From: Gammaproteobacteria bacterium
GTDB taxonomy: Bacteria > Pseudomonadota > Gammaproteobacteria > JAJPIJ01
DNA: 64,000 nt
NCBI GenBank assembly: GCA_022071965.1
Contig: JAJVIQ010000020.1
Coordinates: forward strand, 1-64,000
Reading direction: 5' to 3'
The notes beneath the pieces were generated by a model. It was given only the letters and a program-made list of their open reading frames with translations. It did no database searches and was not told where the DNA came from. Positions 22,145 to 40,529 of the stretch are shown here, one piece after another. Every line of letters starts with the position of its first letter. Position 1 is the first letter of the stretch. The position numbers were made by a program, and so were the translations under genes.

Positions 22145-22801
22145 TCAGGCGACGACGCCCTCGTCGGTGAAGTGCCCGGGGAACACGTTTGCGAGATAGG
22201 CGAAGCTGATCCGGCGCGCGCGGCTGGCGCTCATCGAGCGATGCGAGATGAGGATGTCCATCCACAGTCCGTCGGTCAGGGCCGCCAGGCTGCTGGCTAT
22301 GACGTCGGCGTCGGCGTGCTTGTAACGCCCCTCGACGATCACCTGCCTGCAAAGCCCGTGCAGGGCCTCGTCGTATTCCTGATCGCGCTGTTTGCAAAGG
22401 CGCAAATACGTCGGGCGCGAACGCGCCTCGCCCCAGAACGCAAACCAGACGGCGAGTTTTCTGCGATCACAGAGGGCAGGTGTGAAATCCAGCTCGACCA
22501 GTTGCGCGAGCTTTTTCGCCGCCGTCGGTCCGGCCCGCTCGAGCGCCGTCTCCCACGCGCTCTTGTACTCGTCAGCCAGGAATCGAAGCGTCTCCACGAG
22601 CAGTTTCTCCTTGCTCTCGAAATGCAGATTGACCATCCCCTGGCTCATTCCGGCCGCGCGCGCGACGTCGCTGATGTTCGTGCCGGCGAACCCGCGCCTG
22701 GCCACCGCATCGATGGTGGCCTTGATCAGCTGCAGCCGGCGCTGCTCCTTGGCGGCCTGGCGGCGCCTCAACGGCGGATGCTGCGCTGCGTTACGCTTCA
22801 T
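22145..22801 (-). CDS. TetR-family regulator, BetI-like
   Basis: A 218-residue repressor-type protein. The HTH is TNISDVARAAGMSQGMVNLHF (about 42-62), and the ligand domain has the BetI-type pattern VWFAFWGEARSRPTYLRLCKQRDQEYDEAL, which in BetI-group regulators senses choline-like quaternary amines. ATG at 22801 is preferred over a far upstream ATG because that extension would cross the operator. It is the first gene of the minus-strand operon and diverges from the aminotransferase operon across a clear palindrome. It resembles the repressor half of the fused protein at 38333-40228. Confidence 0.93.
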   Translation of the reverse strand: MKRNAAQHPPLRRRQAAKEQRRLQLIKATIDAVARRGFAGTNISDVARAAGMSQGMVNLHFESKEKLLVETLRFLADEYKSAWETALERAGPTAAKKLAQLVELDFTPALCDRRKLAVWFAFWGEARSRPTYLRLCKQRDQEYDEALHGLCRQVIVEGRYKHADADVIASSLAALTDGLWMDILISHRSMSASRARRISFAYLANVFPGHFTDEGVVA

Positions 22802-22917
22802 TGCTGCCCTTCCTTCTGCCCTCTTCCGCGCAAGTCGATGATCCGTGGCGGGGGCAGTGACGCCGTGGCTGTCCGGTGTCGAGATACTACATTCGGAATG
22901 CCACGGGCGCAACAAAA

Positions 22918-22937
22918 ATGAATGAAAATTCATTCAT
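22918..22937. promoter_or_regulatory. Palindromic operator between the divergent catabolic operons
   Basis: ATGAATGA-aaat-TCATTCAT is a perfect 8-base dyad with a 4-base centre, in an AT-rich patch about 117 bases upstream of the TetR start and 91 bases upstream of the aminotransferase start. Length and symmetry suit a TetR dimer pair. The half-site TGAATGA recurs upstream of the fused regulator-oxygenase gene (40305-40311). One site could thus control both operons. Confidence 0.65.
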
Positions 22938-23027
22938 ATTTGTGTGGACACGCGATGTCCCCGTGTGGCATCGTGACGGCTTGCATAGGACGGCCGATCA
23001 GGTGTCACGAATCCAGGCAGGTGAACC

Positions 23028-24359: not shown

Positions 24360-24401
24360 TGGCGAAGGACGGGCGAACGGGCCTCTGCTCCCGAGGGTAG
24401 C

Positions 24402-26018
24402 GTGAAGAAGTACGATGCGATCGTCGTTGGCGCGGGCCACAACGGGCTCACCAGCGCCGCGTTCCTGGCCAAGGCCGGGCTGCGCGTGCTCGTTCTCGAG
24501 CGCAACCCGTACATCGGCGGCGCCGCGGTCAGCCGCGAGCTGCACAAGGGCTGGACGTATTCGAACTGCTCCTACGTCTGCAGCCTGTTCCGGCCCGAGA
24601 TCTACCGCAGCCTGGAACTCGCCCGGCACGGCCTGCAGGTGATCCCCTACGGCGGCGGCATCACCTTCACCCGCGACGGCGGCTATTTCGGCAACTACAA
24701 CGATCACGAGGTCAAGCGCCGCGAGATTGCCCGTCACAGCAGGCGCGACGCCGACGCCTACGATCGCTACGAAGTCGACGTCATGAAGCAGACCCGCTTC
24801 ATCCGGCCCCTGCTGCTGCGAACGCCGCCGGACCCGGCTTCCTTCAGACCGCGGGACGTGTTCGAACTGCTCTACCTGCTGAGGAAGTTCCACGACCTCG
24901 GCGAGCGCCAGATGTACGACACGCTCCGCTTCTGGACCATGAGCATCGGCGATTTTCTCGACGAGTATTTCGAGTGCGACGTCGTCAAGGCGCACTTCGC
25001 CGGCAGCGGCATCATCGGCACGGCCCTGGGGGTCTACTCCCCCGGCACGGCGTACGTGCTCCTGCATCACTACATGGGGGATATCGACGGCAGCATCGGC
25101 GCGTGGGGCTTCGCGCGCGGCGGCATGGGCGCGATCACGAAGGCGCTGGGAGCGGCGCTGCAGTCCTACGGCGGCGAGATCCGCACGGATGCCGATGTCG
25201 CACGCATCAGCGTGCGCGGAGGCCGTGTCGCCGGGGTCGCCCTGCGCAACGGTGAGGAGTACGAGACCGACATCGTCGTTTCCAATCTCGACGTGAAGCG
25301 GACCTTCCTGAAGCTGTTCGACGAGGGCGATCTGCAGCCGGATTTCCTGGGCAAGGTGCGCAATTTCAAGATCCGCGGCTCCTCGGGAAAACTGAACATC
25401 GCGCTCGACGGACTGCCGAGCTTCCCGGCGTTGCCGGGAGGCAGTCCGCTGATGACCGGGGACATGCACTTCACCGACTCGCTCGAGCGCATGGAGCGGG
25501 CCTACGACGACTGGAAGAACGGACGCTGGTCGCAGGATCCATACGTCGACATGCTGATACCCACGCAGATCGATCCGACGATGGCCCCGCCCGGCAAGCA
25601 TTACATGACGGTGTTCGTTCAATACGCCCCGCCCCGTCTCGCCACCGGCGACTGGACCGACGCGGACCGGCAGGCCTTCGGGAAGACGGTCACCGACCAG
25701 ATAGCCCGGTACAGCCCGGACTTCGAAAATCTGATTCTGCATGCGGAAGTGCGTACGCCACGCGAACTGGAGAACGAGGTCGGCCTGACCGAAGGCAACA
25801 TCTTCCAGGGCGAACTCACCATGGATCAACTGCTGTTCAATCGCCCCTTCCCGGGCTACGCGCAGTATCGCGGGCCGCTGAAGGGCATGTACATGTGCGG
25901 ATCCAGCACGCACCCCGGCGGCGGCGTGATGGCGGCGCCCGGAGCCAACGCCGCGCGCGAGATCCTGCGCGATCTGCGCCGTGCGAATACCGTCCCGGGG
26001 GATGCCAGCGATGAATAG
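24402..26018 (+). CDS. FAD-dependent oxidoreductase, phytoene-desaturase-like (COG1233), copy 1
   Basis: A 538-residue flavoprotein beginning with GTG. The dinucleotide fold is IVVGAGHNGLTSAAFLAKAG (7-26) with VLVLERNPYIGGAA; the C-terminus has YMCGSSTHPGGGVMAAPGANA, the FAD-closing motif of the family. COG1233 enzymes desaturate or isomerise carotenoids, but related copies occur in non-carotenoid clusters; no carotenoid gene lies here, so an amine or acyl oxidase/dehydrogenase role is likelier. It overlaps the next, paralogous gene by 8 bases. Confidence 0.9.
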   Translation: MKKYDAIVVGAGHNGLTSAAFLAKAGLRVLVLERNPYIGGAAVSRELHKGWTYSNCSYVCSLFRPEIYRSLELARHGLQVIPYGGGITFTRDGGYFGNYNDHEVKRREIARHSRRDADAYDRYEVDVMKQTRFIRPLLLRTPPDPASFRPRDVFELLYLLRKFHDLGERQMYDTLRFWTMSIGDFLDEYFECDVVKAHFAGSGIIGTALGVYSPGTAYVLLHHYMGDIDGSIGAWGFARGGMGAITKALGAALQSYGGEIRTDADVARISVRGGRVAGVALRNGEEYETDIVVSNLDVKRTFLKLFDEGDLQPDFLGKVRNFKIRGSSGKLNIALDGLPSFPALPGGSPLMTGDMHFTDSLERMERAYDDWKNGRWSQDPYVDMLIPTQIDPTMAPPGKHYMTVFVQYAPPRLATGDWTDADRQAFGKTVTDQIARYSPDFENLILHAEVRTPRELENEVGLTEGNIFQGELTMDQLLFNRPFPGYAQYRGPLKGMYMCGSSTHPGGGVMAAPGANAAREILRDLRRANTVPGDASDE

Positions 26019-27585
26019 AGATTGCGACGTCATCGTCATCGGGGCCGGACACAACGGGCTTGCATGCGCGGCCTACCTGGCCAGGGCGGGGCGGAAGGTC
26101 TTGGTGCTGGAGGCCGCGGCCGCCGTCGGCGGCGCGGCGACGACGGCCGAGTTCGCGCCGGGTTTTTCCGTCTCGGCATGCGCGCACCTCTGTTATCAGC
26201 TCAATCCACGGGTGATCGGGGAGCTCGCCCTCGCCCGGCACGGCCTGCGCTGGGCCGCCGCCGGACTCGACACCATCGCGCTGTCGACCAATGGCAGGCA
26301 CCTGCGCATCGCCGATGGAGGCGCGAGCGTCTCGGGCGCGGGCGTCTCGGCGGGCGACACGGCGGCACTCGCGGAATTCGACATGCGGATGAAGCGGTTC
26401 GCGCGCCTGCTGGTGCCGCTTTTCGATCAACGCCCGCCACGGCTCGCCGATAACGACTGGCGCGACAAGCTCGCGCTGGCCAGGCTGGGGTGGAGCATCC
26501 GCCGCATGGGCCGCCCGGACATGCAGGAGTTCCTGCGCATCGCCGCCATCAACATCTACGACGTGCTCGAGGAAACCTTCGAGCACGCGCTGTTGAAGGC
26601 TGCGATCGGGCTCGACGCCGTGCTCGGTACGCACATGGGTCCGCGCTCGCCGAACACCGTGCTGTCGTATCTGTACCGGTTGAGCGGCGCGTGTACCCCG
26701 CGCGCGGTGGGGGCCGCGCTGCCGCAGGGCGGGATGGCCGCCGTGTCACGCGCGCTCGCCGGCGCGGCGCAGGCCCTCGGGGCCGAGATTCGTACCGGCG
26801 CTCGCGTCGCCCGCATCCTCGTGGAACACGACCATGTGACCGGTGTCGAGCTCGCTGATGGCGAGATGCTGCGGGCCGGGACGGTGGTCTCCAATGCCGA
26901 CCCCAGGACCACGTTCTTCGGCCTGTTGGGCGCCGGCCGTCTCGAGGCCGGTTTCGCGCGTTATGTGAAGAACATACGCATGCGGGGCACGGCGGCCAAG
27001 CTGCATCTCGCCCTCGATCGGCTGCCGGCCTTCAACGGGTTGGAGCCCGCCAGCATGGGGAATCGCCTGCTGATCGCGCCGACGCTCTCCTACCTCGAGC
27101 AGGCCTTCGATCACTCCAAGTATCGCGACTACTCCCCTGCCCCGGTCATGGAGATGGTCATCCCCACGCTCCATGACGCCTCGCTGGCACCGCCCGGCAA
27201 GCATGTCCTGTCAGCCATCGTGCAGTACGCCCCCCATGACCTGCGCGCCGGGTGGGAACAGGTCGGCGGGAAGTACAGGGATCTGCTGATCGATACCCTG
27301 GCCCAGTATGCCCCGGACATCCGCGACTGTATCCTTGCCGCCGAGCTCCTCACGCCCGTCGATATCGAGCGGCGGTTCGGCATGACCGGCGGACACTGGC
27401 ATCACGGCGAGCTGGCTCTCGATCAGTTTCTCATGTTGCGGCCGGTGCCCGGTGCGGCGCAGTATGCGACGCCGCTGCCGGGGCTCTATCTCTGCGGCGC
27501 CGGCGCGCATCCTGGCGGCGGCGTCATGGGCAGCGTCGGAAGGAACGCGGCCGGCGCGATCCTGGGCGGAGCGGCATCGCCATGA
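26011..27585 (+). CDS. FAD-dependent oxidoreductase, phytoene-desaturase-like (COG1233), copy 2
   Basis: A 524-residue paralogue of the preceding protein, sharing the N-terminal GAGHNGLACAAYLARAG fold, the central YLYRLSGACTPRAVGAALPQGGM and the C-terminal LCGAGAHPGGGVMGSVGRNA. ATG at 26011 follows GGGGGA and overlaps the upstream gene by 8 bases; the 3' end overlaps the GcvT-like gene by ATGA. Tight coupling of two paralogues suggests a heteromeric enzyme or two sequential steps. Confidence 0.9.
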   Translation: MNRDCDVIVIGAGHNGLACAAYLARAGRKVLVLEAAAAVGGAATTAEFAPGFSVSACAHLCYQLNPRVIGELALARHGLRWAAAGLDTIALSTNGRHLRIADGGASVSGAGVSAGDTAALAEFDMRMKRFARLLVPLFDQRPPRLADNDWRDKLALARLGWSIRRMGRPDMQEFLRIAAINIYDVLEETFEHALLKAAIGLDAVLGTHMGPRSPNTVLSYLYRLSGACTPRAVGAALPQGGMAAVSRALAGAAQALGAEIRTGARVARILVEHDHVTGVELADGEMLRAGTVVSNADPRTTFFGLLGAGRLEAGFARYVKNIRMRGTAAKLHLALDRLPAFNGLEPASMGNRLLIAPTLSYLEQAFDHSKYRDYSPAPVMEMVIPTLHDASLAPPGKHVLSAIVQYAPHDLRAGWEQVGGKYRDLLIDTLAQYAPDIRDCILAAELLTPVDIERRFGMTGGHWHHGELALDQFLMLRPVPGAAQYATPLPGLYLCGAGAHPGGGVMGSVGRNAAGAILGGAASP

Positions 27586-28769
27586 GCACCGGGCATTTCC
27601 GTACACCGCTGCAGCACACGCCCTTTCATTCCCGCCTGGTCGCTGCCAGCACCTGCAACGAGTGGTATGCGTGGAAGGGTTACACGGCGCCTTCGCGGCT
27701 GACGGAGGTGGAATTCGAGTACTTCGCCATCCGCAACAGCGCCTCGATCTTCGACATCACGCCGATGACGAAGTATCGCATCCGCGGGCCGGACTGCGTT
27801 CCCTATCTCAATCGTCTGCTGACGCGCGAGATCGGCGCGCTGGCGGTGGGTCGGGTCGCGTACTGCCTGTGGTGCGATGACGCCGGGCAGCTCATCGACG
27901 ACGGCACTCTGTTCCGCCTTGCCGGGCAGGAATACCGGCTCTGCTCGCAGGAGCGGCATTACGACTGGCTGCTGACATCGGCGCTCGGGTTCGACGTCGG
28001 CATCGAGGAGGAGACCGGGCATGTCGCGGCGCTGGCCCTGCAGGGCCCCACGTCCTGCGCCGTGCTGCGGGGCCTCGGCATCGGGGCCATCGAGATGCTC
28101 AGGCCGTTTCACCTGATGAGTACGTCCTTCCAGGGGCATGAGTTCATGATCTCGCGTACGGGCTTCACGGGCGATCTGGGCTATGAGCTGTGGATGCACC
28201 CGGATGCAGCCGGTGCCATCTGGGACGCCCTGATCGAGGCGGGAGGCGACTACGCCATCATGCCGATCGGCAGCGAGGCGCTCGACGTGGCGCGCATCGA
28301 GGCCGGCTTCATCCAGGCCAACGTCGACTTCGTGCCAGCGGATCAGGCGGTGCGCCCGGGGCGCGGCCGATCCCCGCTGGAGCTGGGCCTGGCCAGCCAC
28401 GTGGATTTTCGCAAGGCGAACTTCACCGGCCGGCGGGCACTGTCGGAGGAACAGCGCCGCGGGTCGCGTTACCAGCTGGTGAGGCTCGACATCGACGGCA
28501 GCACGCCGGCGACCGATTCCTTCGTCTACTACGGCCGGCGCAAGGTCGTCGGACATGTGACCTCGGCCGCATGGTCACCCACGGCCAAGGCGAACATCGC
28601 GTTGGCCTCGCTGCAGACCCCTTACGGCACGCAGGGCGATGACCTATGGGTGGAGATCTACTACAAGCGCGAACTGAAATGGGAACGAAAGATGGCGCGC
28701 TGCCGGGTCGTGGCGGGGACGTTTTACGACCCGCCGAGACGGCGGCAGACGCCGGCGGCGGATTATTGA
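27582..28769 (+). CDS. GcvT-family folate-dependent aminomethyl/methyl transferase (DmdA-like)
   Basis: A 395-residue GcvT/DmdA-type protein. Family features are FDITPMTKYRIRGPD near the N-terminus, FMISRTGFTGDLGYELWMHP in the middle (fold and folate-site region) and a C-terminal GcvT barrel domain. Members transfer a one-carbon unit from an amine (glycine cleavage T, dimethylglycine or sarcosine oxidation) or a sulfonium (DMSP) to tetrahydrofolate. Next to flavoproteins and Rieske oxygenases it most plausibly captures methyl-derived carbon from a methylated amine. Start ATG overlaps the previous stop (ATGA). Confidence 0.9.
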   Translation: MSTGHFRTPLQHTPFHSRLVAASTCNEWYAWKGYTAPSRLTEVEFEYFAIRNSASIFDITPMTKYRIRGPDCVPYLNRLLTREIGALAVGRVAYCLWCDDAGQLIDDGTLFRLAGQEYRLCSQERHYDWLLTSALGFDVGIEEETGHVAALALQGPTSCAVLRGLGIGAIEMLRPFHLMSTSFQGHEFMISRTGFTGDLGYELWMHPDAAGAIWDALIEAGGDYAIMPIGSEALDVARIEAGFIQANVDFVPADQAVRPGRGRSPLELGLASHVDFRKANFTGRRALSEEQRRGSRYQLVRLDIDGSTPATDSFVYYGRRKVVGHVTSAAWSPTAKANIALASLQTPYGTQGDDLWVEIYYKRELKWERKMARCRVVAGTFYDPPRRRQTPAADY

Positions 28770-30895
28770 GTCCGCCACCCGGGATTTCGGCGCGACGTCT
28801 GGACCCGCTGTTGCGGCCGCGATCGATCGCGGTCGTCGGCGCCACGCCTCGCGACGGGGCAGTCGGCAACCAGACCTTGCGAAACCTGATCCAAGGCGGC
28901 TACGCCGGGGCGCTGTACGCCATCAACCCGCGTCATCGCGAGATTCACGGGATCCCCTGTTTCGCCGGCTTCGCCGATCTGCCGGGGCGCGTGGAGCACG
29001 CGATCTTCGCGCTCGGCGACCCACGCATGGAAGCCGCTCTCGACGATGCCTTGGATCATGGCGTGCGCGCCGTGACCCTGCTGTCGGCGCTGGTGCTGGA
29101 CAGCGACCGAGATCCGCCCCTGCGCGAACGCGTGCGGGCGCGATTGCTGCGGGCCGGGGTCGTCGCCTGCGGCGGCAACGGCATGGGCTTTTGCAATTTC
29201 ACCGATCGGGTGTGGGCCTACGGTTTCGAGACGCGGCGGCACGGCGACCGCGGCAACGTGACGCTCATCAGCCACTCCGGCGCCGGGCTGTGCGGCATCC
29301 TCGACACCGACGAGCGATTGCAGTTCAATCTGGCGATCTCCCCGGGCCAGGAGTTGTCGGTCACGATGGCCGACTATCTCGATTTCGCGCTGGAGCAGCC
29401 CGAGACGCGGGTCGTCGGGCTGTTCATGGAGACCGTCCGCGATCCCGACGCGATGATTCGTGCGTTCGGGAAGGCCCGCCGCCGATCGATCCCGATCGTG
29501 GCGATCAAGGTCGGGCGCACCGATATGTCCGCGCGTCTGGCCGTATCGCACTCCGGCGCGCTGGCGGGTTGCGACACGAGCTACGACGCACTGTTCGACC
29601 GCTACGGGATCCAGCGCGTACGCGACATGGACGAGCTGGCGGCCGCGCTCGTCATGTTCGCGCAGCCGCACCCGGTTGCCGCCGGAGGCCTGGTCAGCAT
29701 TCACGATTCCGGCGGCGAGCGACAGTTGCTCATCGATGTGGCCGCGGAGCTCGAGGTGCCGTTGGCCGAGCTCTCCGCCGGTACGAGCGGCAAGCTCGCC
29801 GCGATGCTCGATCCCGGGCTGCCGGCCGTCAATCCGCTCGACGCCTGGAGCGCCGGCGGCCCGGACGCCCACGAGACCATCGCCGACTGTTTCGCGATCA
29901 TGCTGAAGGACCCCGCGGCCGCGTTCGGCGCCGTGGTGCACGATCGCGTCGCGGACGGGCGCATCTATCCCGGTTACGCCGGGTATCTTCAGCATGCACA
30001 TGCCGCGACCGGCAAGCCGGTATTTCTCGTCTCCAATCACCAGGGGACCGGTGCCGATCCGCTGGTGACGCGCCTCACCCGGCAAGGATTCCCGGTGCTG
30101 GACGGGCTGGCGCCGTTTCTGATCGGCGCACGCTGCCTCCTGGCCTACCGCGACTTCACGCACCGCGTGGAGTCGCCGCCCCCGGATGTCGATCCCGCGA
30201 TCCTCGAGCGCTGGCGGTGGCGCCTCGCCGATGAAGGGACGCCGGACGAGGCGACGAGCATGGAGCTGCTCGCCGAGGCGGGCCTGCCGATGAACCGGGG
30301 ACGGCTGGCGGAAGACGAGGCGGCGGCGGTCGCCGCAGCGACGGCGCTCGGCTTTCCCGTCGTGATGAAGACGGCGCGCGCCGGCATCGCGCACAAGACG
30401 GATGTCCGCGGGGTGATCCTCGATGTCGCCGACGAGGAAGGCTGTCGCGTGGCCTATCGTTCACTCGCGCGTCGTCTGGGCGGGCGCGTGCTGGTCGCGC
30501 CGATGATCCGCGATCCGGGCGTGGAGATGATCCTCGGCATGGTCAACGACGCGCAGTTCGGGCCCCTGGTCATGCTCGGCTTCGGCGGGGTCCACGCCGA
30601 GACGCTGAGGGACGTGCGCTTCGCGCTGCCGCCCTTCGGCACGGGCACGGCCCGCCGGCTGCTCGATACCTTGCGCATGCGCCCGCTGCTCGATGGCGCC
30701 CGCGGCGCGCCGGCGCCGGCCGTCGACGCGTACTGCCAGGCCGCCGCGCGCCTGTCGGTGGTCGCGCATCATCTGCGCGAGATGATCGCCGAGATCGATC
30801 TCAACCCGGTGATCCTGAGTGCCCGGGGATGCCTCGCCGTCGATGCCCTGATCGTCACGCGCGCCCTGCAACACCGCGGCGGAGATCGCGCGTGA
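28766..30895 (+). CDS. ADP-forming acyl-CoA synthetase family protein (ACD superfamily)
   Basis: A 709-residue protein with fused alpha and beta parts: a CoA-binding domain (RPRSIAVVGATPRDGAVGN), succinyl-CoA-synthetase-like domains (SHSGAGLCG; VSHSGALAG, where the family places a phospho-His loop) and a C-terminal ATP-grasp domain (PVVMKTARAGIAHKTDVRGV, EIDLNPVI). No ATG gives a sensible N-terminus; TTG at 28766, overlapping the upstream stop as TTGA, yields LSPPPGISARRLDPLLRPRS, the usual start of the family. It should make an acyl-CoA with release of ADP. The DMSP-CoA lyase DddX belongs to this superfamily, so a ligase/lyase is possible. Confidence 0.88.
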   Translation: MSPPPGISARRLDPLLRPRSIAVVGATPRDGAVGNQTLRNLIQGGYAGALYAINPRHREIHGIPCFAGFADLPGRVEHAIFALGDPRMEAALDDALDHGVRAVTLLSALVLDSDRDPPLRERVRARLLRAGVVACGGNGMGFCNFTDRVWAYGFETRRHGDRGNVTLISHSGAGLCGILDTDERLQFNLAISPGQELSVTMADYLDFALEQPETRVVGLFMETVRDPDAMIRAFGKARRRSIPIVAIKVGRTDMSARLAVSHSGALAGCDTSYDALFDRYGIQRVRDMDELAAALVMFAQPHPVAAGGLVSIHDSGGERQLLIDVAAELEVPLAELSAGTSGKLAAMLDPGLPAVNPLDAWSAGGPDAHETIADCFAIMLKDPAAAFGAVVHDRVADGRIYPGYAGYLQHAHAATGKPVFLVSNHQGTGADPLVTRLTRQGFPVLDGLAPFLIGARCLLAYRDFTHRVESPPPDVDPAILERWRWRLADEGTPDEATSMELLAEAGLPMNRGRLAEDEAAAVAAATALGFPVVMKTARAGIAHKTDVRGVILDVADEEGCRVAYRSLARRLGGRVLVAPMIRDPGVEMILGMVNDAQFGPLVMLGFGGVHAETLRDVRFALPPFGTGTARRLLDTLRMRPLLDGARGAPAPAVDAYCQAAARLSVVAHHLREMIAEIDLNPVILSARGCLAVDALIVTRALQHRGGDRA

Positions 30896-32418
30896 ACCTC
30901 GGCGCCGCGCGCTCGCTTTCGCGGGAGGACTGGCGGGCGCTGGCCGCGCGCCTGCGGCCCGAGACCCGGATGCTGATCGATGGCCATTTCCTGGACTCGA
31001 TGACCGGGGGCGTATTCGAGACCATCAACCCGGCCGATGGCAGCGTCCTGGCGACGGTCTCGTCCGCGGCCGGTGTCGACGTCGATCGCGCGGTCGCCTC
31101 GGCAAGGCGCGCGTTTCGATCCGGATGCTGGTCACGCCTGCCCCCGCGCCGGCGCATGGAGATCCTGTATCGATGGCGCGAACTCATCGAGGCACACGCC
31201 GCGGAACTCGCGCTCCTCGACACGCTGGACATGGGCAAGCCCATCGCGGACGCGTTGAACGTCGATCTGCCCGCCGTGATCGACACCATCGGCTTCATGG
31301 CGGAGTGCGTCGACAAGGTCGATGGCGCGGTCACCAGCACGGCGCCCGACGTCATGCATTTCGTGCTGCGCGAGCCGCTGGGCGTGGTGGCGGCCATCTC
31401 GCCGTGGAACTACCCGTTGCTGATGGCGACCTGGAAGGTGGCGCCGGCGCTGGCGGCAGGCAATACCGTGGTCCTGAAGCCCGCCGAGCAGTCCCCGCTC
31501 AGCGCCCTGCAGCTGGCGCGGCTTTTCCTGGAGGCGGGCGGACCACCGGGGGTCTTCAACGTCGTGAACGGACCGGGCGAGATCGCGGGCAAGGCGCTCG
31601 CGCTGCATCCGGAGGTGGCCAAGGTGAGTTTCACGGGCTCGACCGCCGTGGGCAAGCTGATGCTGCAATACGCCGGCCTTTCGAACATGAAACGCGTCGC
31701 GCTCGAGTGCGGCGGCAAGTCCCCGCAGATCTTCCTCGCCGACACGCCCGATCTCGACCGTGCCGTGGCGGCGGCCTGCAATGGCATCTTCGCCAACATG
31801 GGGGAGGTCTGCAACGCCGGGTCGAGACTGCTGGTCGAGCGCCGGATACACGAGGAGTTCGTGGAACGATTCATCGCGGTGAGCGCGAACGCGTATCGCG
31901 CCGGCGACCCCCTGGATCCCGCCACCAGCATGGGGCCGCTCGTCGATCGCGGTGCCCAGCGGCGCGTCCTCGGCTACATCGATACCGGCCGGCGCGAGGG
32001 AGCCCGGCTGCGCTTCGGAGGCGATGTGCCGTCCGGGCTGGGCTGCGGCGCCTACGTCAACCCCACCCTGTTCACGGGCGTGGACAACGGCATGACGATC
32101 GCCCGCGAGGAGATATTCGGGCCGGTGGCATGCGTCATCCCGTTCGAGGATCTCGACGCGGCGATCGACATCGCCAACGACACGATCTACGGACTCGCCG
32201 CCGGGATCTGGACGCGTGATCTCGCCACGGCGCACCGGCTCATCCGCGAGATCGAGGCGGGCGTGTTGTGGGTGAACTGCTTCGACGAGGGCGACATGAC
32301 CCAGCCCTTCGGCGGCTACAAGCAATCAGGCAACGCCAGGGACAAGTGTTTCGACAGCCTGCTCAGCTACACGCAGACGAAGTCGGCATGGCTCCGGATC
32401 ACGCAGCCTTCGGGATGA
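30892..32418 (+). CDS. NAD(P)-dependent aldehyde dehydrogenase
   Basis: A 508-residue ALDH. PWNYPLLMATWKVAPALAAG and KPAEQSPLSALQLA (cofactor site), SFTGSTAVGKL, LECGGKSP (general-base Glu) and GEVCNAGSR (catalytic Cys) are intact. GTG at 30892 overlaps the synthetase stop (GTGA) and follows GGAG. Sequence style is like gamma-glutamyl-aminobutyraldehyde or betaine-aldehyde dehydrogenases, fitting an amine-derived aldehyde. The substrate is inferred from the neighbours only. Confidence 0.93.
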   Translation: MNLGAARSLSREDWRALAARLRPETRMLIDGHFLDSMTGGVFETINPADGSVLATVSSAAGVDVDRAVASARRAFRSGCWSRLPPRRRMEILYRWRELIEAHAAELALLDTLDMGKPIADALNVDLPAVIDTIGFMAECVDKVDGAVTSTAPDVMHFVLREPLGVVAAISPWNYPLLMATWKVAPALAAGNTVVLKPAEQSPLSALQLARLFLEAGGPPGVFNVVNGPGEIAGKALALHPEVAKVSFTGSTAVGKLMLQYAGLSNMKRVALECGGKSPQIFLADTPDLDRAVAAACNGIFANMGEVCNAGSRLLVERRIHEEFVERFIAVSANAYRAGDPLDPATSMGPLVDRGAQRRVLGYIDTGRREGARLRFGGDVPSGLGCGAYVNPTLFTGVDNGMTIAREEIFGPVACVIPFEDLDAAIDIANDTIYGLAAGIWTRDLATAHRLIREIEAGVLWVNCFDEGDMTQPFGGYKQSGNARDKCFDSLLSYTQTKSAWLRITQPSG

Positions 32419-32425
32419 GAATTCC

Positions 32426-33247
32426 ATGTCCACATTGATCTACGCCGTCGACGGTCCGGTCGCGCTGCTCACCCTGAACCGGCCCGAGAAACTCAACGCC
32501 GTCAACAACCGGATGGTGGGGGAATTGAACGCGGCCCTGGACCGTGCGGAGGCGGACGAGGCGATCCGCGCCATCGTCCTCAGCGGCGCCGGGCGCGCCT
32601 TCTCCGCCGGATTCGATCTGGACACCGGCGAGGAAGGATCCGGGCGGGATGTCGACGCCCTCCGGCGCATGCTGCAGCGGGATTTCGACGTCATCATGCG
32701 CTTCTGGCGCTCGCCGAAACCGACGCTGGCGGCCGTGCACGGCCATTGCCTCGGCAGCGGGATGGAGATGGCGCTCGCCTGTGACCTGACGGTCGCGGGT
32801 TCCGGTTGCCGGTTCGGCGCCCCGGAGGTGCAATTCGGCAGCGGCATCATCACCATGATCATCCCCTGGCTCGTCGGGGCGAAGTTCGCCAAGGAGTTGC
32901 TGATGATCGGCGACGACCAGGTGTCCGCCGAGCGTGCCCTGGCCATGGGGCTCGTCAATCGGGTGGTCCCCGACGAGGCGGTGCTGGACGCCGCCCTCGC
33001 CATGGCGCGCGACATCGCCACCAATGGCCGCCTGGCGGTCGCGCTCACCAAGCAGGCGGTGAATCGCAGTTACGATATCATGGGCATGCGCCAGGCGATG
33101 GAGCAGGCGCTGGAACTGGACGTGATCGTCGAGGCGAGCGATACGCCGGAATCGCGGGCGTTCTACGATATGGTGGCCAGCCAGGGCACGAGGGCGGCGA
33201 TTGCCTGGCGTCGGGCCCGCATCCTCGACTCCTCGCGGAAGGCATGA
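32426..33247 (+). CDS. Enoyl-CoA hydratase/isomerase family protein
   Basis: A 273-residue crotonase-fold protein. The oxyanion hole is AFSAGFDL and GHCLGSGMEMALACDLTVA, and the two catalytic acidic positions (Glu of GMEMA, Glu of APEVQFG) are present, so hydratase activity is plausible. It starts 8 bases after the ALDH stop, inside the plus-strand operon. It may hydrate an unsaturated CoA ester made by the acyl-CoA dehydrogenase; a DmdD-like role is one alternative. Confidence 0.92.
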   Translation: MSTLIYAVDGPVALLTLNRPEKLNAVNNRMVGELNAALDRAEADEAIRAIVLSGAGRAFSAGFDLDTGEEGSGRDVDALRRMLQRDFDVIMRFWRSPKPTLAAVHGHCLGSGMEMALACDLTVAGSGCRFGAPEVQFGSGIITMIIPWLVGAKFAKELLMIGDDQVSAERALAMGLVNRVVPDEAVLDAALAMARDIATNGRLAVALTKQAVNRSYDIMGMRQAMEQALELDVIVEASDTPESRAFYDMVASQGTRAAIAWRRARILDSSRKA

Positions 33248-33251
33248 ATCC

Positions 33252-34691
33252 ATGGGCACTGACAGGCGCGGCCGGAAGAACGAGGCGCCAGCACCGCGCC
33301 GCCGTCGGCGCGGTGCGTACCCCACCGCGGCCATCGATCGCCTGCTCGAGCGGCAGCCTCGGACCGAACTCATCGAGGTGCTGTTCGCCGACATCAACGG
33401 CATGTTGCGTGGCAAGCGCGTGGGCCGCGAGGACATCCGGAAGGTCTTCGAGCCCGGCGTCAGTCTGCCCGGCGCGACCGCCCTGCTCGACAGCAAGGGC
33501 ATGACCATCGATGCCATCAGCAACGGCAGCGCCGACGGCGACCCGGACATGATCTGCCGGCCCATCGCCGGCACCACCGCAACGGTGCCCTGGGCGAACC
33601 GCCCCACTGCGCAGACGATGGTCAGCATGTACGACGTCAGGGGCATGCCCTATTTCGCCGACTCCCGCCACGTGCTGGAGCGCGCCGCGGAGCTCCTGGC
33701 CAGGATGGGGTTGCGGCCGGTGGTCGCCATCGAGCTGGAGTTCTATCTGCTCGACGGCGCTGCCGCCGAGACGCCGCGACCGCGACTGGGACGGATCCCG
33801 GGCACGTCCCTGCCTCAGGACGGTCCGCAGTACAACAGTCTCGATGATCTTGCCGATCTCGACGCGTATTTCGCCGAAGTGGACGCCGCCTGCCGCGAAC
33901 AGGGGATCCCCGCGAGCGCGGCACTGGCGGAGTTCGCACCCGGGCAGTACGAGATCAATCTTCATCACATCGATGATCCGCTGCTGGCCTGTGCGCATGC
34001 CCTGATGCTGAAACGGGTGGTCAAGAGCGTGGCGCGCCGGCACGGGATGGGCGCATGCTTCATGGCGAAGCCGTTTGCCGGGAGCGCGGGGTCCGGAATG
34101 CACGTGCACGTCAGCCTGCTCGACTCCAGCGGTTGCAACGTCTTTGCGGACGCCGGCGGCGAGCGCGGCGAGTTGCCGATCTCCGATCGGCTGCGTCATG
34201 CCGTCGGTGGCCTGATCGCGACCATGGACGAGGGCATGGCGATCTTCGCGCCCAATGCGAACTCCTATCGCCGATTGCAGCCCGCCTCGTTCGTCCCGTT
34301 GACCCCCAACTGGGGCATCAATCATCGCCGGCTCGCACTGCGCATACCGCTGGCGGCAGCCAAGGACGTGCGGGTGGAGCATCGTGTCGCCGGTGCCGAC
34401 GCGAATCCCTACCTGGTGATGGCGGCCGTATTGGCCGGCATACATCACGGCCTCACGCGGCGTTGCGATCCGGGACCGATGGTGCCGTCGGGCGCCGTGA
34501 TCGACGAGATCATCACCCTGCCCACGCGCTGGGAGCAGGCCCTCGACGCCTTTGAGCGCGGGTCGGTGCTGCGGGGATATCTGGGTGAGGAATTCGCGCG
34601 CATCTATGCGATCTGCCGACGCGGGGAGTGTGAGCGTTTTCATGCCGAGATCGGCCGGCAGGACTACGAATGGTATCTGCGCAACGTCTAG
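33252..34691 (+). CDS. Glutamine synthetase family ligase (gamma-glutamylamide synthetase-like)
   Basis: A 479-residue type-I glutamine-synthetase-fold enzyme. The beta-grasp start is LIEVLFADINGMLRGKRV; metal and substrate motifs are VVAIELEFYL, AEFAPGQYEINLHH, GMHVHVSLLD and the NWGINHRRLALRIP segment. In catabolic clusters such proteins (PuuA, GMAS, GlnA-like) join glutamate to amines rather than ammonia. ATG at 33252 is chosen; residues 1-25 are a basic, likely disordered tail. Together with the PotF-like binding protein and ALDH this recalls the gamma-glutamyl route for putrescine, but no PuuB- or PuuD-type gene is present. Confidence 0.9.
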   Translation: MGTDRRGRKNEAPAPRRRRRGAYPTAAIDRLLERQPRTELIEVLFADINGMLRGKRVGREDIRKVFEPGVSLPGATALLDSKGMTIDAISNGSADGDPDMICRPIAGTTATVPWANRPTAQTMVSMYDVRGMPYFADSRHVLERAAELLARMGLRPVVAIELEFYLLDGAAAETPRPRLGRIPGTSLPQDGPQYNSLDDLADLDAYFAEVDAACREQGIPASAALAEFAPGQYEINLHHIDDPLLACAHALMLKRVVKSVARRHGMGACFMAKPFAGSAGSGMHVHVSLLDSSGCNVFADAGGERGELPISDRLRHAVGGLIATMDEGMAIFAPNANSYRRLQPASFVPLTPNWGINHRRLALRIPLAAAKDVRVEHRVAGADANPYLVMAAVLAGIHHGLTRRCDPGPMVPSGAVIDEIITLPTRWEQALDAFERGSVLRGYLGEEFARIYAICRRGECERFHAEIGRQDYEWYLRNV

Positions 34692-34730
34692 GATCGCGGC
34701 CCGGTGCCGGCGTCAGCGGGAGCGAATTGC

Positions 34731-35738
34731 ATGCGGCACGATAATGCGGCCGACTCCTTCCGCGCCCTGCTGGCCACCGGTACGGAGAACGGCCCCGTCC
34801 TCGAGCTGCGGCAGCTGGATCGGGGCTTTCTCATGGAAGGCGACGTGACGATTGCAGTCGATTATTCCACGCTGAACTACAAGGACGGGCTGGCGCTCAC
34901 CGGCGGAGCGCCGATCCTGCGCGTCTCGCCGATGATCCCGGGAGTCGATCTCGCGGGGATCGTCGAGAGTTCCCGGAACCCGGACTTCATGCCCGGGGAC
35001 AAGGTGATACTGAACGGCTGGGGCGTGGGTGAACGGCATCATGGGGGCTACGCGCAACTCGCGCGCGTCAGGGGCGAATGGCTGATCCCGCTGCCCGAAC
35101 GCCTCTCCACGCGCCAGGCGATGGCCATCGGGACCGCCGGCTATACCGCCATGCTCTGCATCATGGCACTCGAGGACGACGGCTTGCGGCCAGATGGCGG
35201 TCCCGTGCTGGTCACCGGCGCGGCCGGCGGCGTCGGCAGCATTGCGGTGTCATTGCTTGCGGGACGCGGTTACACGGTGACTGCCTCCACCGGCCGCGTC
35301 GAGGAGGCGCCGTATCTGCAGGCGCTGGGAGCTTCGACCGTGGTCGCACGCGGGGAGTTTCAGACCCCGGTGAAGCCGCTGGCGAAGGAGCGCTGGGCCG
35401 GTGCCGTGGACGCCGTCGGCGGCACGACGCTGGCCAACGTGCTGTCTCAGATGCGTTATGGCGGCCGCGTGACGGCCTGCGGGCTGGCCGGCGGGATGGA
35501 CCTGCCGGCGACGGTCGCGCCGTTCATACTTCGCGGCGTGCGTCTGCTGGGTGTCGATTCCGTGATGGCGCCGCGGCAGGAACGCCTGCGTGCCTGGCAA
35601 CGCCTGGCCTCGGAGATCGATCCCGGCAGGCTGGAATCCATGACACGCACGATTCCGATCCGGGAGTTGCCGGCGGCCGCCGCCGACATACTGGCCGGCA
35701 GGGTCCGCGGCCGTATCGTCGTCGACGTCAATGCCTGA
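34731..35738 (+). CDS. MDR-family oxidoreductase, acrylyl-CoA reductase (AcuI/YhdH)-like
   Basis: A 335-residue zinc-free medium-chain reductase. DYSTLNYKDGLALTG, PGVDLAGIVESS, VTGAAGGVGSIAVSLLAGRGY (NADPH fold), GVDSVMAP and the C-terminal ILAGRVRGRIVVDV match AcuI/YhdH, which reduces acryloyl-CoA to propionyl-CoA and protects cells from this toxic electrophile. ATG at 34731 follows GGGAG; a GTG at 34704 is less likely. Last gene of the plus-strand operon. Its presence implies an acryloyl-CoA-like intermediate in the pathway. Confidence 0.9.
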   Translation: MRHDNAADSFRALLATGTENGPVLELRQLDRGFLMEGDVTIAVDYSTLNYKDGLALTGGAPILRVSPMIPGVDLAGIVESSRNPDFMPGDKVILNGWGVGERHHGGYAQLARVRGEWLIPLPERLSTRQAMAIGTAGYTAMLCIMALEDDGLRPDGGPVLVTGAAGGVGSIAVSLLAGRGYTVTASTGRVEEAPYLQALGASTVVARGEFQTPVKPLAKERWAGAVDAVGGTTLANVLSQMRYGGRVTACGLAGGMDLPATVAPFILRGVRLLGVDSVMAPRQERLRAWQRLASEIDPGRLESMTRTIPIRELPAAAADILAGRVRGRIVVDVNA

Positions 35739-35754: not shown

Positions 35755-35780
35755 GCCCACGCTAGGTAACGCGCGTGGGC
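35755..35780. terminator. Hairpin between convergent operons
   Basis: GCCCACGC (35755-35762) pairs with GCGTGGGC (35773-35780) around a 10-base loop, between the AcuI-like and MFS genes and overlapping the MFS stop codon. No T-run on either strand; probably a bidirectional, Rho-assisted or partial terminator. Confidence 0.4.
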
Positions 35781-37021
35781 GGCTGCTCTCGCAGGCAGTT
35801 CGTGGCCGACGGCAGTTCGCCGGCTGCTTCCGGTTGCACGCCGCGGGTGATCGGCCTCATGCGTGCCACGACCACCGTTACCCCCGCGGCGAGCGCGAGC
35901 AGCGCCAAGGGAAAGGTCCTGGCGTCGAGAAAATCCATGCCGGATCCGATCATCACCGCACCGAGAAATCCGCCGAGGCACCATCCGGTCACGAGGCTGG
36001 CGCTGGCGATCGGCAATTGTTCGCGACCGACGGTCTTTCCCGCCAGCGCCAGTGCCGCGCCATAGATGCTAAAGCAGGCGGGCCCGAACAGGAAGGTGAG
36101 CGCGAGCAGGATTCCCGGCCGCAGGAGCTCGGCCTTCGTCAACGCCAGGGCGTACAGCACGATGTACACGGACAGGATCCGCATCAGCCGCCTCTCACCC
36201 ACCCGGTCGGCAAGGTACCCGAGCGGCAGCAGCAGTACTACCTGTCCCCACACGAACACCGTCAGCGCGTACAGCGACAGGTGATCGGAATACCCCGCGG
36301 TGCGCAGGTAGGGCGTCAGCAGCGACCATGCGGAATTGTCCAGCGCGCCAGTCAGGACGCCAAGACCGATCACCCAGGGCAGCCGGCGGCCGATCTCGAC
36401 GAATCGCCGTAGCGTGACCGCGGCCTGACCGACGCTGGCCTGCCGGTCGTCCGGGAGGAAGACAGCCGCCGGGATCGTCGCCACGCACATTGCCGCGGCC
36501 GCCGCCAGGAAGAACCCGGCCGGTTCCAGGTTGCCGGCATTGACGATGATCGGTCCCGTCGCGAAGCCCAGCGATTGCACGGAGAGGTACAGGGCATTGA
36601 TGCGGTTGCGCACGGCGTGCCCACAGGCGCCGTTGATCCAGGTCTCGGCCGCCACGTAGAACAGTCCGAACGCGGCGCCCTGCAGCGTCTCCGCGATCAG
36701 CCATAGCCAGAATGCGCCCGGGACGGAAAGCAAGGCGATGGCCACGCCCGATGCCAGCAGCGCGAGCACGGCGCACACGCGCGTGCCGAGACGCCGGAGC
36801 ATCTCCGGGTAACCGTGTGAGAAGAAGATCAGCGAAAGCGCCCACATGTTCAACAGCAGCGCCGTGCGCGTGGATGCCGCCTGAAACTCCGCGAGCGTGT
36901 TGATCAGCGTGGCGTACGACAGGCTCAGGCCCATGTTCGCCACGAAGGCGGTGAACAGCACCCCGAGCAGCATGGGAAGCCGGGCGCCTTCGTCGGATCG
37001 TCTTTCGGATTTGATGACCAT
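35762..37021 (-). CDS. MFS transporter
   Basis: A 419-residue, twelve-helix major facilitator. Helix-rich segments alternate throughout (for example LLGVLFTAFVANMGLSLSYA and FWLWLIAETLQGAAFGLFYV); the loop LADRVGERRLM carries the MFS 'D-R-x-G-x-R-R' motif. ATG at 37021 is followed by a short cytoplasmic tail (VIKSERRSDEGARL). It is last in the operon headed by the fused regulator-oxygenase, so import of the pathway substrate or export of a product is likely. The solute cannot be read from sequence. Confidence 0.9.
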   Translation of the reverse strand: MVIKSERRSDEGARLPMLLGVLFTAFVANMGLSLSYATLINTLAEFQAASTRTALLLNMWALSLIFFSHGYPEMLRRLGTRVCAVLALLASGVAIALLSVPGAFWLWLIAETLQGAAFGLFYVAAETWINGACGHAVRNRINALYLSVQSLGFATGPIIVNAGNLEPAGFFLAAAAAMCVATIPAAVFLPDDRQASVGQAAVTLRRFVEIGRRLPWVIGLGVLTGALDNSAWSLLTPYLRTAGYSDHLSLYALTVFVWGQVVLLLPLGYLADRVGERRLMRILSVYIVLYALALTKAELLRPGILLALTFLFGPACFSIYGAALALAGKTVGREQLPIASASLVTGWCLGGFLGAVMIGSGMDFLDARTFPLALLALAAGVTVVVARMRPITRGVQPEAAGELPSATNCLREQPPTRVT

Positions 37022-37109
37022 GATGATAGCCGCCTCGTCGCGCCGGCCGCGGCTCCCGCGGAGACGCCAGGACGGCGTCCGGGGCGCGAACGCGGCCTGG
37101 GCCGCTTCG

Positions 37110-38306
37110 TCAGGACATGCGCTCGTTGCAGGCCGCGACGGTGCCGCGCGGCGGCGCTGTGCGCAGGCGGCTGACCGGCAAGGTCGCCCGCATCCGGGCC
37201 GCGTAGGCGCGCAGGCAGACCTCATTTCGCCCCAGGACGCCTTCGGTGAAGCTGCTCGAAGTCACTCCCGCCTGCACGCGCTCGATGAGGTCCTTGTCCT
37301 CGAATCCGACACGCCGGTTGATCCGCAGATTGAGCGCCCGGGCCGTCCTCATCGCGGGGCGCTCGTCCGGGTAGCCGTAGGCGGCGTCGCGTACCAGAGT
37401 CTCGACAGGCGACAACGGCAGGAACTGCAGAAACTCGACCTGATCCGGATAGAGATTGAACGTGAGATTCGGCCACAGCAGGTAATACAGCCACATCCGC
37501 CTGTACTGCTCCGGCAGGAATTCGACCGGCGGCAATACCTCCCTGTAGGCGCGCACGCTCAGACCGGCGCGGGGCAGATCTTCCATCGACCCCCACAGGC
37601 GGTAGACCGACTCGGTCCTGACCTCCATGCCATAGGTGTTCCCGACCAGGCTGTCGAGGCCGCGATGCGCAACCCGCACGTGCAGCGCGTCGATGTAGTT
37701 GTCGCAGGCGTTCTTCCAGTTCGTCTGGCAGCGCCGGGCGGACACGCTGCCCAGTGGCTGCAGGGACTCGATGCGGTAGAGGCGCATCTCGGCCTCCATC
37801 GGTGCGACGCCCTCCGCCAGGTCCACGCCGCCGCTCGTGAACCGGATGAAGACGAAGCCCAGGAAGACGGTGCAGTCGATCGGCACGAGGCCGTAATCAC
37901 CGTCGCGGATCTGCGGGTATTGGGTCTTGAACGGAATGCCGACCAGTCTGCCGTCGAAGGCATAACTCCACGCGTGATACGGGCAGGTGATGTGGCGTTC
38001 GCAGCGGCCGCGATCGCCGTCCAGCAGCCGCGCCGCCCGGTGACGGCACACATTGTGGAACGCGCGCAGCGCGCCTGATTCGTCGCGAATCACGATCGCC
38101 GATTCGCCCAGCAGCGAGAAGGTGTGATAATCGCCCGCCGCCGGGATGTCGTTGGCGTGGCAGACCAGCTGCCAGCTGCGCATGAAGATCCGTTCGCGTT
38201 CCAGTTCGAAGAATTCCTGGTCGAAATAGGTCCATGCCGGCAGGGTCCGATCGCTTGCATCGTGCCCGGGTGCACGTGCCGGCTCTACGGGGCGGGCGAG
38301 GTCCAT
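37110..38306 (-). CDS. Rieske non-haem iron oxygenase, alpha subunit
   Basis: A 398-residue ring-hydroxylating-type oxygenase. The Rieske 2Fe-2S ligands are Cys87/His89 (NVCRHRAA) and Cys108/His111 (CPYHAW); the catalytic domain has NYIDALHVRVAHRGL with Asp206 (electron bridge), His209 and His214 as iron ligands. Proteins of this shape include the demethylases or C-N lyases of glycine betaine, carnitine and stachydrine. It starts 26 bases downstream of the fused oxygenase gene and is clearly paralogous to its C-terminal half. No ferredoxin reductase gene is present in the window. Confidence 0.94.
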   Translation of the reverse strand: MDLARPVEPARAPGHDASDRTLPAWTYFDQEFFELERERIFMRSWQLVCHANDIPAAGDYHTFSLLGESAIVIRDESGALRAFHNVCRHRAARLLDGDRGRCERHITCPYHAWSYAFDGRLVGIPFKTQYPQIRDGDYGLVPIDCTVFLGFVFIRFTSGGVDLAEGVAPMEAEMRLYRIESLQPLGSVSARRCQTNWKNACDNYIDALHVRVAHRGLDSLVGNTYGMEVRTESVYRLWGSMEDLPRAGLSVRAYREVLPPVEFLPEQYRRMWLYYLLWPNLTFNLYPDQVEFLQFLPLSPVETLVRDAAYGYPDERPAMRTARALNLRINRRVGFEDKDLIERVQAGVTSSSFTEGVLGRNEVCLRAYAARMRATLPVSRLRTAPPRGTVAACNERMS

Positions 38307-38332: not shown

Positions 38333-40228
38333 TCAGCGCCCTGCCCGCGCCAGAGATTCGTTGCGTAGCGCGACGCTTCCGGCCGGCGGCGCCCGCAGTA
38401 GCAGGGACGCCGGCAGGCGTTCACGGATCCAGTCCTGGAAGCGCTTCACGAGACATTCCTTGTCCGAGAGGATGCCCACCTCGTAGGCGCTGGTGGCCAG
38501 GCCGCGCTGCACCGAGTGCGTGAGCGCGTTGTCCTCGTCCTGCACGCGCATGTTGATGCGATCGCTCAAGTAGCGCACGGCCCTGGTCTCGCGGCGACTG
38601 TCGGACAGGCCGTAGGAGCGGCCGCGCAGCATGACGCGCCCCGCGGCCAGCGGGATCATCTGGAAGAAATCCATTTTCTCCGGGAAGAGATCGAAAAAGG
38701 TGTTCGGGAACATCGCGTAGTACGTCCAGCGCGTCTGCATGTGGGCGGGCAGGTGTTCATATCTGGGCAGCAGCTTTCGGTACCGTTGCGTGCTCCAGTT
38801 CCTGTCGGCCTTCTCGCGCATCTCGTGACTGAGTCGGATCACGCCGGTCCCTGCGTATTCGCGGTCGTACTGCGTCTTCATCAGCGCGGACAGTCCGCGG
38901 TGGCCTGCAGGAAAGTGATAGTCCTCGACGTAGTTCTCCACCCCGTTCTTCCAGTCGATCTCCACCGTCTCCTGCCAGAACCGGTGATCGCTGTAGCGAT
39001 CGTTCGTCGGCACCATCTCCGCCGTGCGATACAGTGCGAACTCCTCCGCGTACGGGGCGAACTGCTCGGCCACGGACGATCCGCCGGCCTCGAACCGCAC
39101 GAAGACGAAGCCCAGAAAGACCTCGCAGTCCAGCCCCTTGAGGCCGAATCGCGAGGCATCGTGCCTGCGGAAGGTGTCCGGGGCCGAGAGGCCGTGACGC
39201 CTGCCGTCGAGATTGTAGGTCCAGCCGTGGTAGGGGCAGACCATGCGTCCGGTCTTGCAGCGGCCGCTCTGTCCCTGCACGACCGCGTGCGCGCGATGAC
39301 GGCAGACGTTGTGGAAGGCGCGGATCTCGCGATCTTCCCCGCGCACGACGAACACGCGCTCGTTCAGCAGCTCGAAGGTCACGTAATCCCCGATCTGCGG
39401 CATGTCGCTGACATGGCAGACGAGCTGCCACGAAGGCAGGAAGACATGCTCTTTCTCCAGCGCGAGGAACTCCTCGTTCCCATAGATCCACGCCGGCAGC
39501 GTATAGATCAGACCCTCCTCTGACACCGGCGCCATCGCCTCCGGGTCGTCGTCCGGCACGCGGGCCGCATCCCGCGCGGCGGACGCCGGTGCCGGCAAAT
39601 CGAACCGCCAGGGAAATATGCTGGCGAGAAACGCCTGGCAGCGCCTGCGGGCGGCGGCGCGATCGAACCTCTCGCCCGTGAACATGATCTCCTGCCAGAG
39701 CTCGTCGATCAGGCCTACCAGCCCATAGGCGATGGCCTCGGCGTCGAGACGCGCGCTGCCCTGCGGATCGCGGGTCATGCGCTCGCAGAGTTCCAGCACC
39801 GTGCGGAAATAGGCGGCATCGCGCTCGCCGCAGAGCTGCTGATAGTCCTGTCGGGCGCGCGACTCGGACATGAAGGCGTACCACACGGCCACCTTGCGTG
39901 GCTCCGTCAGCTCCGGGTCGAGATTGACGTCGATGATGTCCAGCAATGTCCGGGCCGGATCTTCCCCGGCGTTGTCGAGACAGCGTGCAATGGCCTGCTC
40001 GAACTCCTCGGCGACGCTGCGCAGGGTGGCGAGCAGCAGGGATTCCTTGCTGGTGAAATGAAAGTTGACGGTGCCTGCGGTGAGGCCGGCCAGCGCAGTA
40101 ATCTTGGCGAGCGTCAGGTTGGATATGCCATGCTCGAAGATGGCGGTCATGGTGGCATCGATCAGGCGCTGCTTGCTCTCGGGGATCGGTGTCGATACCC
40201 CCGGCTGACGGTTCTCGACGATGGCCAT
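38333..40228 (-). CDS. Fusion of a BetI-like TetR repressor and a Rieske oxygenase
   Basis: One uninterrupted 631-residue frame. Residues 1-209 form a complete TetR protein: HTH LTLAKITALAGLTAGTVNFH (38-57) and the BetI-type ligand domain VAVWYAFMSESRARQDYQQL. A roughly 25-residue Ala/Asp/Pro linker (210-232) follows. Residues 232-631 form a complete Rieske oxygenase: Cys309/His311, Cys331/His334, and ENYVEDYHFPAGH with Asp436, His438, His443. ATG at 40228 is set by AGGAGG six bases upstream. An in-frame ATG at 39535 (Met232), preceded by GGAGG but at only 2 bases, could also release the oxygenase alone. It heads an operon with a second Rieske gene and an MFS transporter. Confidence 0.88.
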   Translation of the reverse strand: MAIVENRQPGVSTPIPESKQRLIDATMTAIFEHGISNLTLAKITALAGLTAGTVNFHFTSKESLLLATLRSVAEEFEQAIARCLDNAGEDPARTLLDIIDVNLDPELTEPRKVAVWYAFMSESRARQDYQQLCGERDAAYFRTVLELCERMTRDPQGSARLDAEAIAYGLVGLIDELWQEIMFTGERFDRAAARRRCQAFLASIFPWRFDLPAPASAARDAARVPDDDPEAMAPVSEEGLIYTLPAWIYGNEEFLALEKEHVFLPSWQLVCHVSDMPQIGDYVTFELLNERVFVVRGEDREIRAFHNVCRHRAHAVVQGQSGRCKTGRMVCPYHGWTYNLDGRRHGLSAPDTFRRHDASRFGLKGLDCEVFLGFVFVRFEAGGSSVAEQFAPYAEEFALYRTAEMVPTNDRYSDHRFWQETVEIDWKNGVENYVEDYHFPAGHRGLSALMKTQYDREYAGTGVIRLSHEMREKADRNWSTQRYRKLLPRYEHLPAHMQTRWTYYAMFPNTFFDLFPEKMDFFQMIPLAAGRVMLRGRSYGLSDSRRETRAVRYLSDRINMRVQDEDNALTHSVQRGLATSAYEVGILSDKECLVKRFQDWIRERLPASLLLRAPPAGSVALRNESLARAGR

Positions 40229-40283
40229 GATCATCCTCCTGTCCGTGACCTGCTCGATGATGATACAGGCGTCGCCGCACCGG

Positions 40284-40308
40284 TTCAACGAATATTTAAT
40301 CGTTTGAA
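40284..40308. promoter_or_regulatory. AT-rich imperfect inverted repeat upstream of the fused regulator-oxygenase
   Basis: TTCAACGA (40284-40291) and TCGTTTGAA (40300-40308) form a dyad with one bulged base, 56-80 bases before the start at 40228, in an AT-rich patch running to about 40320. The overlapping TGAATGA at 40305-40311 matches the half-site of the operator at 22918-22937. It is the natural binding place for the fused repressor, the free TetR protein or both. Confidence 0.5.
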
Positions 40309-40529
40309 TGATTGTTTAAATCGCCCCCCGGGAGCGGCAGGGGTCACGTGCGCAGACGTGTCCTTGCGCAGGTTTTCCGGTGAGAGGATCCGTCGGGAAA
40401 AAAATTGCCTGCGCGGCGCCCCGGCGGACATGTCCGGTCGGCGGAGAGGACTTCGAAGGAATCGCAGGATCGCGCGAAAAACATCTTTATATCAGCGTGA
40501 TACAAATGAATTCTCAGGAGTTACCGATA
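40309..40529. other. Intergenic stretch downstream of tatD
   Basis: About 220 bases with no gene. It contains a perfect 12-base palindrome, CGGACATGTCCG, at 40425-40436, and a run of seven A at 40398-40404 (seven T on the tatD strand). No clean GC stem precedes the T-run, so I do not call a terminator. This is the boundary between the catabolic island and core genes. Confidence 0.4.

Follow-up and report, generated by a model that had tools for sequence, protein, structure and literature searches.

Few enzymes are fused to a DNA-binding repressor of their own. In proline utilisation, the flavoenzyme PutA doubles as its own repressor, one polypeptide combining the catabolic activity with redox-controlled DNA binding, and the regulator BzdR carries an XRE-type helix-turn-helix (HTH). 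The shikimate-kinase-like enzyme domain of BzdR became an effector-binding domain after loss of its activity (PMC3602430), and among the tetralin genes, the Rieske oxygenase electron-transfer proteins ThnY and ThnA3 report the pathway state to transcription (PMC4814904). No description of a TetR–Rieske fusion, or of any enzyme–repressor fusion built on a Rieske oxygenase, was found in the open-access papers searched, in line with the sequence-only reading of the present locus, which had known of none. Described counterparts of the separate halves are the carnitine monooxygenase CntA and the stachydrine demethylase on the enzyme side, and the choline-responsive repressor BetI on the regulator side.

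In the window, i.e., the whole 64,000-nucleotide stretch analysed here, the ORF, Pfam and homologue evidence identified a TetR/BetI-type repressor–Rieske oxygenase fusion of 631 aa at 38333..40228 on the minus strand. The frame, read from 40228 to 38333, comprises 631 uninterrupted codons, and AGGAGG lies 7 bases ahead of its ATG. Pfam called four domains, all on the minus strand and all above the gathering cut-offs: the TetR_N HTH (residues 22–67, 40028..40165; 40 bits, cut-off 24), the BetI-type ligand/dimer domain TetR_C_6 (residues 91–205, 39614..39958; 62 bits, cut-off 27), the Rieske [2Fe-2S] domain (residues 266–350, 39179..39433) and the non-heme iron catalytic domain Ring_hydroxyl_A (residues 411–606, 38411..38998). 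The single polypeptide proposed by the sequence-only reading was thereby confirmed, as were the intact metal ligands it had claimed for the oxygenase, all seven being present in the alignment: the CxH and CxxH cluster ligands C309, H311, C331 and H334, and the 2-His-1-carboxylate iron site H438, H443 and D566, with E435 at the bridging position. Residues E435, H438, H443 and D566 align with E205, H208, H213 and D323 of CntA (CntA numbering, with the tag offset taken into account). The AlphaFold model of the fusion had a mean pLDDT of 80, with a disordered linker (pLDDT <50) at residues 213–226 (39551..39592, minus strand). Furthermore, in Foldseek the oxygenase half matched CntA best (TMt 0.83), followed by the stachydrine demethylase, and CntA was also the best sequence match in the PDB. 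The fusion shares the fold and the Rieske and iron ligands with these two enzymes, and the bridging glutamate with CntA, but it is only ~23% identical to them and they have no repressor domain. The cut-off of the equivalog NF058607 for the glycine betaine monooxygenase GbcA was not reached (124.9 vs 670 bits).

Full-length fusions numbered 21 in 18 genomes, covering gamma- and alphaproteobacteria and a class of metagenome-assembled genomes (MAGs) labelled Deltaproteobacteria; starts were set by alignment, as the mechanical gene caller placed the start too late for G535 and too early for the window gene. The named fusion records are gammaproteobacterial, proteobacterial and 'Deltaproteobacteria' MAGs. 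A sister genome (G001) encodes the fusion at 90% identity with the same junction open, the fusions in G123 and G370 have 58–59% identity, and further fusions occur in G216, G535, G371 and many genomes of the G369 class (full-length in 11 of 91 genomes searched), some with two copies. Close homologues are therefore not all split into two genes, and the hidden stop or frameshift in the linker that had been considered from the sequence was not seen, since the 20 further fusions are open across the same junction. The TetR_N domain was kept in all 23 aligned proteins (the 21 fusions and two shorter relatives). Free relatives of the oxygenase (36–50% identity) were frequent in other genome samples, often with a separate TetR gene nearby. 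In a phylum sample of 398 genomes, 21 other genomes matched over the oxygenase half only, and 152 records of a plasmid collection matched, none of them covering 80% of the query, with the oxygenase half alone matched among the best matches listed. Analysis of seven close pairs revealed dN/dS values of 0.06–0.16 for the TetR part, 0.07–0.19 for the Rieske part and 0.09–0.23 for the catalytic part, compared with 0.31–1.15 for the linker (residues 213–241) in the six scorable pairs. Purifying selection acts on both halves and is relaxed in the linker, indicating that the frame behaves as one functional protein and excluding an assembly error. The TetR–Rieske fusion is real and old.

In the TetR tree, 22 of the 23 fused or vestigial proteins grouped in one clade (100/99), apart from the free BetI-type regulators that the same gene clusters encode. 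The TetR half of G535 fell outside this clade; a single clade including it was not rejected (p=0.09), and a second fusion event in G535 is possible from these trees. For the oxygenase halves, from whose tree G371 was omitted as too divergent, one clade was rejected (AU p=1.5e-5), and free oxygenases, including the second oxygenase of the window (RO2, see below), nested among the fusion halves. A single clean fusion event was accordingly discarded, and the claim goes no further than at least one old fusion and subsequent fission or re-fusion. On our reading of the trees, fissions or duplications came after an old fusion, in an order that goes beyond what trees alone fix.

Upstream of the fusion gene, a putative operator spans 40283..40320, with half-sites ~10 bp apart and the core ATTCAA-N4-TTAAAT at 40294–40309. 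The sequence ATTCAANNNNTTRAAT occurs only once in the 3.56-Mb genome, at 40294–40309 in the fusion's own promoter, so that the site picked out earlier at about 40284–40311 does hold a palindrome found once in this genome, as far as the sequence goes. Palindromes of TTGAAT/ATTCAA half-sites, often 10 bp apart, directly precede the start codon in most fusions, e.g., ATTGAATGGACATTCAAT in G535, TGATTGAACATTCAATCA in G123, ATATGACCGTTCAATCAGACTTGAACGGTCATAT in G1080 and TGAATGAATCGTCAATACTGACGATTCATTCA in G369a. Strict sites with a spacer of 4 numbered 11 in 440 kb of loci (~1 expected), and 10 of them were intergenic, before fusions or free oxygenase relatives. In a looser test, half-site pairs were detected upstream of 15 of 21 fusions vs 18 of 361 other genes, with a p value of 1e-13 that is optimistic because the test was picked after the sites had been seen and the sequences are related; the palindrome was not seen by this test in the upstream stretches of the other six fusions, two of which were masked or incomplete. 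Autoregulation of the fusion–RO2–MFS genes is the natural reading of these sites, to which the protein would bind. The same kind of palindrome was also observed 25 bp before the start of a free oxygenase relative in G443 (L123:2352-2367), which suggests control in trans by an unfused regulator.

The gene following the fusion, 26 bp off and in the same direction, encodes RO2, a second Rieske oxygenase of 398 aa (37110..38306, minus strand) that is 41% identical to the fusion's oxygenase half and has intact motifs. A second oxygenase also follows the fusion in G001, G123, G370 and G535, and several fusions had none within the stretch examined. An MFS transporter gene (35762..37174, minus strand; profile match) probably belongs to the same operon. 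Profile matches and neighbourhood comparison further identified an adjoining amine-catabolism cluster (19831..35738) encoding a PotF-like binding protein, an acyl-CoA dehydrogenase, a free BetI-type regulator, a class III aminotransferase, two FAD oxidoreductases, a GcvT/DmdA/TMAO-demethylase-like aminomethyltransferase, a CoA ligase, a PuuC/BADH-like aldehyde dehydrogenase, an enoyl-CoA hydratase, a glutamine-synthetase-like protein and AcuI. Parts of this cluster flank fusions and free relatives in other genomes, and in the G369 class corrinoid methyltransferase clusters (MttB, MtgC-like corrinoid protein, pterin methyltransferase and RACo) contain or border several of the fusions. Such neighbours, with a second oxygenase, methyl transfer and a polyamine-type transporter among them, point to catabolism by demethylation of an N-methylated amine; homarine was considered as the named pathway and dropped, as the papers searched gave nothing usable. 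No partner reductase gene was found in the fusion operon, and candidate reductase-fold proteins are encoded elsewhere in the window's genome (e.g., G000:C19:52360). Within the cluster, the separate BetI-type regulator gene (22148-23028) faces the aminotransferase operon with a related palindrome, TGAATGAAAATTCATTCA, in the gap; its product belongs to a different clade from the fusion's TetR half, and two related repressors may share out the control of one pathway. In addition, the region 32426-35738 encodes the enoyl-CoA hydratase, the glutamine-synthetase-like protein and AcuI (an acrylyl-CoA reductase, scoring above the equivalog cut-off), which suggests that the amine pathway has a C3/acrylyl-CoA branch.

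Both catalytic histidines are kept in 16 of the 21 fusions, and five have lost one or both. In paralogue group a (G369a, G1073a and G1071a), the iron histidines are replaced by Y and L, whereas the four Rieske ligands are all retained, as are the acidic residues, purifying selection persists and the long palindromes are kept. As this non-catalytic group still has the cluster ligands, fold, repressor and operator, a protein of this type is most simply read as a sensor. Group a fusions are located between mttB and mtgC genes; at L178:4723-13218, and also at L108 and L177, the fusion with the dead iron site stands between mttB-type and mtgC-type genes, followed by genes for DUF1638, a pterin methyltransferase and RACo. 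A statistical association of dead iron sites with mttB operons (5/7 vs 1/16 at first) was abandoned, since counting neighbouring corrinoid/RACo genes gave 5/7 vs 5/16 (p=0.17). The first iron histidine is lost in the G1066 fusion, and the G371 fusion lacks the helix with both iron histidines, plus one Rieske histidine, while still scoring as Rieske and Ring_hydroxyl_A. The degenerate G371 gene (L107:7623-9314) adjoins an intact-looking free oxygenase pair and a polyamine-type transporter. Moreover, two shorter relatives, P0003 (G266) and P0004 (G583), fall within the TetR clade of the fusions, and hhalign matched the ~70 residues after their TetR part to the beginning of the Rieske domain (E 1e-4, probability 57%). 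Comparison of two models, the second built with fusions in its alignment, predicted that they keep the first four and two later strands of the Rieske domain and that the cluster-binding part is gone. Pfam did not call a Rieske domain in either protein, and Foldseek with the vestigial protein gave TetR matches only among those listed, which neither supports nor refutes a remnant. On the modelling, a ligand-less Rieske remnant is likely in both.

Taken together, these results suggest an autorepressing oxygenase, in which the N-terminal half, as a TetR-type dimer, would bind the ATTCAA/TTGAAT half-sites before its own start and repress the fusion–RO2–MFS operon. The C-terminal half, with its ligands in place, would be a competent CntA-like (quaternary-ammonium) Rieske oxygenase, which, probably with RO2, would strip an imported methylated amine of its N-methyl or N-alkyl groups, the nature of the substrate being deduced from the neighbouring genes. 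Substrate bound by the BetI pocket, by the oxygenase site or by both, or a redox change of the Rieske cluster, might then release the protein from DNA, so that enzyme occupancy would be reported to the promoter; it is consistent with this scheme that a single amine could be the ligand of the repressor and the substrate of the enzyme. In side lineages, where the iron histidines were lost or the Rieske domain probably shrank to a ligand-less remnant, the oxygenase half would have become a sensor; that a degenerate half stays attached fits a sensory role with no need for catalysis. This reading, in which DNA binding is coupled through the enzyme half to amine occupancy or redox state, with a sensor in the side branches, is held with moderate confidence; the 21 fusions, the seven ligands, the CntA-like fold, selection, operator, amine neighbours and degenerate halves bring it to about even. 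A stricter version is more tentative and falls somewhat short of even, namely that TetR and Rieske oxygenase form one allosteric machine whose DNA binding is directly governed by the substrate occupancy or redox state of the [2Fe-2S] cluster and iron, with relatives showing staged catalytic loss (iron site, cluster, most of the domain) towards a sensor.

Several observations speak against the favoured reading. The linker is disordered and relaxed and shows nothing of a rigid allosteric path, the oxygenase has free relatives that manage without fusion, the operon has no reductase gene, and the loose test missed the palindrome before six of the 21 fusions. The repressor could instead sense its own ligand in the BetI pocket beside an independent oxygenase, the tether merely fixing stoichiometry or being retained by chance, as the long, relaxed linker and the complete BetI-type ligand domain would allow; however, the fusion is retained across distant genomes, and oxygenase halves devoid of the iron site are still attached and selected, making such tethering rather unlikely. 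It is more doubtful still that the oxygenase half is a sensor throughout, that of the window included, with RO2 as the real enzyme. The intact motifs of RO2 directly next door and the catalytic histidines lost in five relatives are in its favour, but the window protein has all ligands plus the bridging glutamate, most fusions keep both histidines, and several have no second oxygenase nearby.

The remaining alternatives concern the product itself. The internal ATG at 39535, proposed earlier as the start of a free oxygenase, does exist, in frame within the linker and after a GGAGG; if it were used, the long product would be minor or mainly a repressor. The gap between GGAGG and ATG is only two bases, though, and the methionine is conserved only in the sister genome and absent from G123, G370 and the other fusions, so that a free oxygenase from this start is poorly supported and appears very improbable. 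An assembly or frameshift artefact joining two genes deserves practically no credence: the named fusion records are metagenome bins, as an artefact might have it, but 21 sequences from 18 genomes run through this junction without a stop, and these independent genomes exclude an assembly or sequencing error. Overall, the bifunctional autorepressor–oxygenase is favoured over uncoupled tethering and over a window protein that is purely a sensor. The second oxygenase of the operon, the wide spread of the family and the members whose oxygenase half lacks an iron site had escaped the sequence-only reading.

Since the family includes intact members next to iron-site-dead, cluster-dead and probably vestigial ones, it makes the transition from enzyme to sensor directly testable. 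It could also give a genetically encoded read-out for methylated amines, which are important to carbon and nitrogen cycling in the sea and in soil. In comparison with known systems, the fusion has TetR_N, the BetI-type C-terminal domain and a half-site palindrome at its own promoter in common with BetI, but carries an oxygenase and misses the BetI equivalog cut-off (TIGR03384; 91.5 vs 201.3 bits). Like PutA, it combines an enzyme and a DNA-binding repressor in one chain, here conserved in 21 proteins, and the redox-controlled DNA binding of PutA may serve as a model by analogy, although the DNA-binding and catalytic folds are unrelated. BzdR differs in its XRE-type HTH and kinase fold, whereas intact and dead enzymes coexist in the TetR–Rieske family; in the tetralin system, reporting falls to a ferredoxin and a reductase-like protein, which act together with ThnR as a separate activator, and no oxygenase is fused. 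By analogy, PutA, BzdR and ThnY/ThnA3 show that each step of the proposed mechanism has a precedent in other protein families. The principle of an enzyme–repressor fusion is thus already known, whereas the combination with a Rieske oxygenase, its spread and the graded decay to a sensor are new to us.
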